A stretch of 64,000 bases of DNA from Acidobacteriota bacterium (GTDB lineage: Bacteria > Acidobacteriota > Vicinamibacteria > Vicinamibacterales > 2-12-FULL-66-21): positions 1 through 64,000 of the forward strand of contig JACPDI010000009.1 in NCBI GenBank assembly GCA_016184105.1, in the 5' to 3' direction. The notes under the pieces are model-generated. The model searched no databases and was not told the origin of the DNA. It was given only the letters and a program-made list of their open reading frames with translations. Positions within the stretch are counted from its first letter, which is position 1. Each line of letters opens with the position of its first letter. Below, in pieces: positions 7,835-10,745 of the stretch. A program made the position numbers and the translations under genes.

Positions 7835-9916
7835 ATGCGGGCTTGGACTGGACGAGGATCCATAAGGGTTTCACTGATGGCCGCGGTGGCGGTCGCCTGC
7901 GCCCTGAGCGCGCGGGCCGCCGACAGGCGGCCGGTGACCTTCGACGACATCATGGCCGTGCGCACCGTGGGATCCGCCGAGATCGCGCCTGATGGGAGCG
8001 CCGTGCTCTACACGGTGCGCCAGTGGGAGCCGGCGGCGAGCCCGCCTGCCGAGAAGCGCATGGAAGCCCGCAGTCACATCTACCGTGTGTCGGCGGCCGG
8101 TGGAGCGGCGCGCCAGCTGACGTTCGGGGATCGCGGCGAGACCAGCCCGCGCTGGTCGCCCAACGGCAGGCTGATCGCCTTCACCGCCGCGCGCGGGAGC
8201 GGTGAGGGTGATGACGCACCGAGGCCGCAGATCTGGGTCATGCCGGCCGACGGCGGCGAGCCGTGGCAGCTCACCTCGGTGAAGGAAGGCGTTTCGTCCT
8301 ACGAATGGGCGCCCGACGGCAAGTCCATCGCCTTCACCTCGCGCGAAGCGCTGTCGAAAGACGACGACGAGAAACGGAAGCGGCGCGATGATGCGAGGGT
8401 GTTCGAGGGAGATTTCCGCCTGACGCAGCTGTGGATCGTGGATGTCGAGCCCAGGAAGGAACGGCGGCTCACCGGAGGGTGCAACTGCACCGTGCGCGGC
8501 ACGCCGTCGTGGTCGCCCGATGCCGCGACGATCGTCTTTGCCGCGGCGCCGACCCCGATGGTCCGCGACGATCGCGAGGACATCTACACGGTCAGCGCAG
8601 ACGGTGGCGGGCTCGAGAAGATCGCCGCGACCGCCGCGCCCGAATCCTCGCCGCGCTGGTCGCCTGACGGCAAGACGATCGCCTACATTGCGGATCCGGC
8701 CGGGCTTTCCATCGGCGACGGCATCACGGTGGGCACCGTCGGCAACAGCCACCTGATGCTCTACGACGTTGCGACGAAGACGTCGAAGGACGCAGCGAGC
8801 CCGGCGTTCGACGCGTCGCCCGGGGCGTTGATCTGGGGGCGTGACGGCAAGAGGATCGGGTTCGCGGCCGGCGTTCGTGTCTGGCGCGACATGTATGCGT
8901 ACGACCTGGAGTCGGGCACGTACGAGCGTGTGACCAACGGCGCCAACATCTCGTCGATCTCGCTCAGCCGCGATGGCCTGCGCGCCGCCTTCATCGCCGA
9001 TTCGGCCGACGCACCGGCGGAAGTGATGATTTCAGACGCGCCGTTCCAGGATTTCAGGCGCATCACCGACACGAATCCGCAGGTGAAGGACCTCGCGCTC
9101 GGCCAGACCGAGGTCCTCACCTGGAAGAGCGCGGACGGCCTCGAGATCGAGGGGCTGCTGCTGAAACCCGTCGGGTTCGATCCCGCGACGAAGTATCCGC
9201 TGATGGTTGTCGTCCACGGCGGTCCCACCGGGGCGTTCACCAACTCGTTCCGCGTGGCGTACGGCGACGGCGGGCAGTTCTGGGCGGGGCAGGGATGGGC
9301 GGTGCTCTATCCCAACCCGCGCGGCAGCACGAACTACGGCGAGAAGTTCATGCGCGGCAATATCCCCGACTGGGGCGGTGGGGACTACCGCGACATCATG
9401 TCGGGCGTGGATGCCGTGATCAAGCGCGGCGTCGCCGACCCGGAGAAGCTCGCCGTGCAGGGCTGGAGCTACGGCGGCTACATGACGTGCTGGATCGTGT
9501 CGCAGACCGGTCGATTCAAGGCGGCGATGATGGGCGCCGGGCTGTCGAACCTGCCGAGCATGTACAACACGACGGACATCCCGGCGTATCTCGGGGGCTT
9601 CTTCAGGGGATATCCCTCAAAGGGGACGCTGGCGCTGTTGAACGAGCGGTCCGGGATCACCTACGTCGATCGCGTGACGACGCCGCTGCTGATCCTGCAC
9701 GGCGCCAACGATGAACGCGTGCCGATCGGACAGCCGATGGAGTTCTATCGCGCCCTGAAGGATCGCGGCAAGACCGTGGAGCTGGTGTTCTATCCGCGCG
9801 AGGGGCACGGGCTGCAGGAGTACTATCACCAGCGGGATCGCCTCCAGCGGCAGTACGAGTGGATCGCGAAGTACACGCTCGGCGACGGGAAGGCCCGAAA
9901 GACTACGACTCCTTGA
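7835..9916 (+). CDS. Exported S9-family prolyl-oligopeptidase-like peptidase
   Basis: This 693-residue serine peptidase is probably periplasmic. A basic N-terminus and hydrophobic segment (MAAVAVACALSARAA) form a likely signal peptide. The middle is a TolB/DPP-like beta-propeller with repeated S-P-x-W-S-P-(D/N)-G units that gates access. The C-terminal alpha/beta-hydrolase domain has the full triad: Ser545 in GWSYGGYM, Asp626 in GANDERVP and His658 in REGHGLQE. The ATG at 7835 has a good ribosome site (GGAGGG, six bases upstream). The 3' end overlaps the convergent mazG by 14 bp. Peptide scavenging is the usual role; the substrate is unknown. Confidence 0.9.
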   Translation: MRAWTGRGSIRVSLMAAVAVACALSARAADRRPVTFDDIMAVRTVGSAEIAPDGSAVLYTVRQWEPAASPPAEKRMEARSHIYRVSAAGGAARQLTFGDRGETSPRWSPNGRLIAFTAARGSGEGDDAPRPQIWVMPADGGEPWQLTSVKEGVSSYEWAPDGKSIAFTSREALSKDDDEKRKRRDDARVFEGDFRLTQLWIVDVEPRKERRLTGGCNCTVRGTPSWSPDAATIVFAAAPTPMVRDDREDIYTVSADGGGLEKIAATAAPESSPRWSPDGKTIAYIADPAGLSIGDGITVGTVGNSHLMLYDVATKTSKDAASPAFDASPGALIWGRDGKRIGFAAGVRVWRDMYAYDLESGTYERVTNGANISSISLSRDGLRAAFIADSADAPAEVMISDAPFQDFRRITDTNPQVKDLALGQTEVLTWKSADGLEIEGLLLKPVGFDPATKYPLMVVVHGGPTGAFTNSFRVAYGDGGQFWAGQGWAVLYPNPRGSTNYGEKFMRGNIPDWGGGDYRDIMSGVDAVIKRGVADPEKLAVQGWSYGGYMTCWIVSQTGRFKAAMMGAGLSNLPSMYNTTDIPAYLGGFFRGYPSKGTLALLNERSGITYVDRVTTPLLILHGANDERVPIGQPMEFYRALKDRGKTVELVFYPREGHGLQEYYHQRDRLQRQYEWIAKYTLGDGKARKTTTP

Positions 9917-10745
9917 CCTCCGCCCAGACAGATTCCATCTGATCGAGCGTCGCCTCGTGCACGGACGTGCCCCGTGCCGCGAGGCGGCGCTCCACGTCCT
10001 CGAACCGCTTCGTGAACTTCTCGTTCGCCTGTCGCAGGGCAGACTCCGGCTCGATGCCCATCTTGCGGGCGAGGTTCGCGATCGCAAAAAGCAGGTCCCC
10101 CATCTCCTCTTCCGCGCGCGCGCGGCTCTCGCGTTCGAGCGCGTGCGCGAGTTCATCCACCTCCTCGCGCACCTTGGCCACGACGTCCTCGGCCCGCTCC
10201 CAGTCGAAGCCGACGGCGGCGACGCGATTGCCGATCTCGTAGGCGCGCAGCAGGGCAGGCAGCGACCGCTTCACGCCGCCGAGGACGGTTGTCTGCTCGC
10301 CGCGCGCCTCCTGTTCCTTCGCCTTGATCTGCTCCCACTGCTGGAGGACGCCGGCGGAAGAAATGGGGTCGGGAGCCTTTTTCCCGCTCGGATCAGGGGA
10401 AAAAGGCTCCCGACCCCTTTTTACGTTTTCCGTAAACACGTGCGGGTGACGGCGGATCAGCTTCTCGACCACGTGGTCGAGCGAGCCGGCGATCGTGAAG
10501 CGTCCCTCTTCGGCCGCGATCTGGGCCAGGAACACCGCCTCGAACACGAAGTCTCCCAGCTCTCCCTCGAGCGCGCGATGGTCCTCGCGGTCGATCGCGT
10601 CGAGCACCTCGTACGTCTCCTCGAGCAGGTACGAGCGCAGCGACCGGTACGTCTGCTCGCGGTCCCACGGACACCCGCCGGGTGCGCGAAGACGAGCCAT
10701 GACGTCGACCAGTTTCTGGAACGCCTCGCCTGCGTGGTCCGCCAT
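9903..10745 (-). CDS. mazG: Nucleoside triphosphate pyrophosphohydrolase MazG
   Basis: MazG hydrolyses (d)NTPs to NMP and pyrophosphate, cleaning the nucleotide pool and affecting the stringent response. The 280-residue protein has two MazG folds. The first starts LRAPGGCPWDREQTYRSL and has the metal-binding EExxE-type helix LLEETYEVLDAI followed by ELGDFVFE. The second has REEVDELAHAL and EEEMGDLLFAI. It is about 18-20 residues longer than usual between HPHVF and WEQIK. That extra peptide (residues 110-127) is encoded by a palindromic repeat inserted in frame (see 10365-10417). The start is 17 bp from the divergent PhnP-like gene. Confidence 0.93.
   Translation of the reverse strand: MADHAGEAFQKLVDVMARLRAPGGCPWDREQTYRSLRSYLLEETYEVLDAIDREDHRALEGELGDFVFEAVFLAQIAAEEGRFTIAGSLDHVVEKLIRRHPHVFTENVKRGREPFSPDPSGKKAPDPISSAGVLQQWEQIKAKEQEARGEQTTVLGGVKRSLPALLRAYEIGNRVAAVGFDWERAEDVVAKVREEVDELAHALERESRARAEEEMGDLLFAIANLARKMGIEPESALRQANEKFTKRFEDVERRLAARGTSVHEATLDQMESVWAEVKES
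10365..10417. repeat. 53-bp perfect palindromic element inserted in frame in mazG
   Basis: Two perfectly complementary 21-nt arms (10365-10385 and 10397-10417, the left beginning GGGGTCGGGAGC) surround an 11-nt loop. The element sits inside the mazG coding frame and adds residues near 110-127 without breaking it. It lies in a surface linker between the two MazG domains, where family members carry only a few residues. This looks like a small non-autonomous palindromic repeat that has landed in a gene, similar in behaviour to Rickettsia palindromic elements. Confidence 0.75.

Follow-up and report, generated by a model that had tools for sequence, protein, structure and literature searches.

The palindrome in mazG

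How does a near-perfect palindrome come to be part of the reading frame of a housekeeping enzyme? The inverted repeat at positions 10365–10417 of the 64,000-nucleotide stretch of DNA analysed here (the window) consists of two perfectly complementary 21-nt arms and an 11-nt loop, and extends to 25-nt arms with one mismatch. It ranks first, as the longest near-perfect one, among the inverted repeats of the window. The mazG reading frame runs through it uninterrupted on the minus strand, the 53 bp encoding residues 110–127 (RGREPFSPDPSGKKAPDP), and the score of the protein is far above the NCBIfam cut-off. No occurrence of the arm is expected by chance at up to three mismatches, and the palindrome folds as a single strand with −48.6 kcal/mol, compared with a mean of −22.1 for shuffled sequences (z = −7.9). 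The initial annotation had described flawless 21-nt arms in a 53-bp element that adds about 18 residues in frame between the MazG domains, and all of these points are borne out. The features of the locus are as follows.

9903–10745, minus strand: mazG, nucleoside triphosphate pyrophosphohydrolase of 280 amino acids, with the element as residues 110–127 in the interdomain linker (translation, family score and orthologues)
10361–10421: extended inverted repeat, with A-rich and T-rich outer ends (inverted-repeat search)
10365–10385, plus strand: left arm of the very likely REPIN, GGGGTCGGGAGCCTTTTTCCC, with the half-site core GGGGTCGGGAGCCTTTTT (inverted-repeat and genome search)
10386–10396: loop GCTCGGATCAG, private to the mazG copy (comparison of copies)
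10397–10417, minus strand: right arm, exact reverse complement of the left arm (inverted-repeat search)
10421–10435, plus strand: small side hairpin TTACG-TTTTC-CGTAA, which adjoins the mazG copy and several others of the family

MazG with and without the insert

An alignment of full-length MazG proteins of the same family, which are about 60–68% identical, places 10–12 residues between the HPHVF motif and the conserved valine that follows, compared with 28 in the window's protein; the linker of its relatives is thus 16–18 residues shorter. The initial annotation had proposed to look for a repeat-free allele in close relatives. No genome of the same genus was among the relatives, and the insert-free linkers come from a comparison of proteins. 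The alignment with Escherichia coli MazG (PDB code 3CRA) shows a gap at the position of the insert. Nor is the sequence unique, the arm being multicopy. In the AlphaFold model, the insert is a coil with pLDDT values of 65–72 that connects two folded halves with values above 90. The length of the MazG linker also varies otherwise, in other families of the order. Comparison at the protein level with relatives about 67% identical suggests that the element was inserted into mazG, where it is presumably translated and probably near-neutral.

A family of doublets

At up to two mismatches, the arm core is found at 51 sites of the 4.24-Mb genome to which the window belongs (G000), and at none in the reversed control. 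Both cores are exact in 18 doublets. Copies were counted by searching the genome, and a covariance model trained on 18 doublets retrieved 26 doublets, one of which (C23:24879) represents a different repeat family, leaving 25. These and three single half-sites (C7:32593, C22:202262 and C40:196826) make up about 28 copies of the element, and the transposase locus described below brings the number of loci to 29. The count of copies inside and outside genes that had been suggested initially gives eight intragenic loci among the 29.

The family unit can be written as AAAAAGGGGTCGGGAGCCTTTTT-loop-AAAAAGGCTCCCGACCCCTTTTT, and its half-site sequence also as GGGGTCGGGAGCC. A side hairpin, TTACG-N5-CGTAA, is located at one or both ends of several copies, that of mazG included, and the same motif or a near match serves as the loop in three copies. 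The bases just outside the arms of copies without this side hairpin are often complementary too (gtgagaaaaag/ctttttctcac and cgccggaaaaag/ctttttccggcg), so that the palindrome exceeds the family consensus in such copies.

Of 396 genomes sampled from the phylum, only G000 and a relative, G048, contain the exact arm pair. Within the named genome collection, nine stretches contain the exact 20-mer half-site, and most of these are from Planctomycetes. Matches to this 20-mer in Planctomycetes and in a Syntrophobacter record include some doublets with long private inner stems; its occurrence in other phyla may reflect shared descent, horizontal transfer or a constraint on the core.

The co-resident transposase

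A search for Y1_Tnp (PF01797) in G000 revealed only two matches, on C21 and C18, of which the former exceeds the Pfam cut-off. The C21 gene (G000:C21:4616–5308) encodes an IS200-like tyrosine transposase and is positioned between purN and purM, both named from a reading of their translations. It is bracketed by the family half-site in inverted orientation, with an identical arm of 24 nt, and the downstream half-site encodes the C-terminus of the protein, KKAPDPFFQFS. The score against NCBIfam NF047646 is 62 bits, below the cut-off of 80 bits. A search of 100 genomes yielded relatives of the C21 protein in 39, many of them with inverted repeats at their ends. The nearest is the RAYT of G048, with 53% identity and the same core. 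In both G048 and a third genome, G030, the sequences on either side of the resident RAYT correspond to the arms of that genome's own doublets, as a RAYT/REPIN system would predict. The C21 transposase very probably spread the element.

The C18 gene (L054:6226–7045) carries a different terminal repeat, of the AAGTGTGACTGTC type. A doublet at G000:C23:24879–24942, GGGGGACAGTCACACTT...AAGTGTGACTGTCCCCC, matches this repeat, and the C18 gene and the C23 doublet constitute a second, smaller RAYT/TIR family in this genome.

We are confident that the mazG element is a REPIN/TIR-type miniature element of the co-resident RAYT/TIRYT transposase, inserted in a tolerant linker. A REPIN, a non-autonomous doublet of inverted REP/TIR half-sites, would be mobilised by the C21 RAYT/TIRYT as single-stranded hairpin DNA, a route known from other TnpA-REP proteins. 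One copy would then have entered the interdomain linker of mazG in frame, and would have survived because its length keeps the frame, its arms are stop-free in six frames, and the added residues fall in a flexible linker. The initial suggestion that a protein-tolerated selfish palindrome has spread is supported by the multicopy family, the repeat-flanked transposase gene, the insert-free orthologues and the further in-frame copies in unrelated genes.

Copies inside genes

Seven copies besides that of mazG lie in frame within genes of G000. The genes were assigned using a simple codon-usage gene caller and translations, and names without a family score are readings of the sequence. The miaB product scores 454 bits against TIGR01574 with the insert in place, and that of ybeY 115 bits against TIGR00043; relatives of both proteins lack the inserts, which are located in length-variable linkers. 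The other hosts are a VWA-domain-like protein, a membrane protein, a zinc-ribbon protein, a RecB/UvrD-like helicase and the 3' end of a nuoM-like gene. Some copies supply the N-terminal or C-terminal end of adjacent genes, nrnA and truB being examples. The copy at C59:12572 (L051:2972–3023) lies where an nrnA-like gene and a truB-like gene overlap, and provides a new C-terminus for one and a new N-terminus for the other. No gene with a frame broken by an insertion was noticed in the family. Given that a fraction of 0.85 of the window is coding, the copies are strongly depleted in genes; this calculation used 7 of 28 and preceded the inclusion of the helicase copy.

The frames of the inserts differ between genes, with KRGREPF, KKGSGAFF and KGVGSLF frames all in use, implying that no particular peptide is kept and that the inserts are tolerated rather than selected as peptides. 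The mazG gene is not special among the hosts, and the insert is ordinary as a finding on mazG itself. Arm length modulo 3 does not predict the intragenic copies.

The intragenic share differs between genomes. In G048, 5 of the 11 copies lie in genes, including a GyrA-like and a uracil-DNA-glycosylase-like gene, whereas none of the 19 copies in G030 does, despite a cognate RAYT. The difference between G000 and G048, taken together, and G030 gives a Fisher p of 0.005, for a contrast that was seen first and tested afterwards. All six frames are free of stop codons in the G000 and G048 arms, whereas a single stop, in one frame, is present in the G030 arms. Openness in six frames was rejected as the whole reason for residence in genes, because the G030 arms are closed in only one frame of six and yet none of their copies is intragenic, so that openness by itself accounts for little; stop codons in the arms account only in part for the contrast between G048 and G030.

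Pairing, loops and alternative explanations

Nearly every copy has a loop of its own, a pattern that simple copying of whole doublets does not account for. Two copies, C13:47893 and C28:118140, have the same loop, and some doublets may thus move whole. An alternative origin of the doublets, which is compatible with insertion by the C21 transposase as it concerns only doublet formation, is that a half-site inserts and the second arm is made in place, templated on the first by hairpin copying or arm-to-arm conversion. The private loops are in line with this origin, as are the single half-sites and the inner stems, whose pairing within a copy is 0.86 in G000 compared with 0.58 for shuffled partners (p = 0.0002); changes on both sides were counted in 24 cells, compared with 8.7 in shuffles. 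The inner stems of G048 and G030 display the same self-pairing pattern. Selection for pairing of a single-stranded transposition substrate, however, would produce the same pattern, and the self-paired inner stems thus reflect either selected pairing or an arm templated on the other arm. We regard formation in place as possible, if tentative. Less probable still, in our judgement, is a RAYT lineage with an RPE-like life, whose stop-free arms would be a recurrent source of protein linkers and whose doublets would form anew at every site through hairpin-templated copying of an arm, explaining the private self-paired loops.

The flawless arms in mazG had been read initially as a sign of recent insertion or of selection on structure. 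Selected pairing is retained as one of the two readings above, but recency does not follow from perfect arms alone, because the arms of the family stay paired despite sequence change.

We further considered a selected regulatory hairpin in the mazG mRNA, tuning translation or attenuating transcription, and find it most unlikely. The mazG-sense strand folds very stably (−48.6 kcal/mol), and other copies are often hosted by gene ends, where hairpins can act. The mazG hairpin, however, lies about 330 nt inside the reading frame and is missing from all aligned orthologues, and related copies occur in many unrelated genes and several frames; the control of mazG translation by a hairpin, put forward in the initial annotation, thus finds no support. 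A terminator or attenuator in the mRNA was likewise rejected, since a scan limited to loops of 3–8 nt scored no terminator-like site, and on the mazG strand the T-tract that follows the stem is interrupted (ATTTC). Finally, an ordinary lineage-specific MazG linker with a chance palindrome, to which the variable linkers of other families in the order would lend some plausibility, is refuted by the multicopy family, with the arm at about 28 other genome sites and none in the reversed control.

Comparison with known repeat systems

REPINs are dispersed inverted REP doublets that form a hairpin and share the genome with a RAYT whose flanks carry the same sequence (PMC3116915), and TnpA-REP recognises and cleaves single-stranded REPs (PMC8266576). 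The family described here corresponds to this system in its inverted half-sites around a spacer, forming one hairpin, in its dispersal as 25 doublets and single half-sites, and in the co-resident Y1 transposase flanked by the same sequence (C21; PF01797, with NF047646 below its cut-off). It differs in number, about 25 doublets compared with hundreds (PMC3116915). Most loci are extragenic, but 8 of 29 are inside genes, whereas nearly all REPINs of Pseudomonas fluorescens SBW25 are extragenic (PMC3116915). Nominally extragenic REPINs can thus be common in genes, given 8 of 29 loci in G000 and 5 of 11 in its relative G048.

The portions of the TIRYT paper drawn on here (PMC3733652) describe IS200-like tyrosine transposases with terminal inverted repeats, present in Acidobacteria, whose repeats also occur elsewhere as single and dimeric copies, and whose genes may end, at the 3' side, within a terminal repeat. 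The long terminal inverted repeats of the C21 gene, the downstream one encoding its C-terminus, and the single and dimeric copies elsewhere match this TIRYT/TIRtron arrangement. The TIRYT motif GGGGWSAS is matched by GGGGTCGG in the half-site at seven of eight positions only, whereas GGGGACAG of the second family of G000 fits it. The same portions describe intragenic repeats of the GTAG and CGTC types, not intragenic TIR repeats, and argue that intragenic REPs may fall in linkers and loops. The GTAG REPs, for example those of Opitutus terrae, resemble the present inserts as in-frame dimers of 20–30 residues with DNA-repair genes among their hosts (PMC3733652), but carry GTAG 5' of the palindrome, where the copies described here have GTAA or no tag.

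Rickettsia palindromes also reside in protein genes (PMC10969869), in frame, in unrelated genes and with tolerated residues. As reviewed (PMC10969869, PMC3733652), however, these elements are about 150 bp long and encode a conserved peptide, in contrast to the approximately 53 bp, several frames and linked transposase of the present family; the related CGTC repeats are described there as having no transposase association (PMC3733652). The mazG family represents a small case in which mobile DNA makes protein linkers longer, housekeeping and DNA-metabolism genes included, and in which in-frame palindromes in proteins are linked to a specific co-resident transposase gene. Intragenic REPs and the TIRYTs of Acidobacteria have already been published; what is new is this family with its transposase, the large fraction of its copies inside genes in two genomes, and the covariation between the two sides of individual copies.
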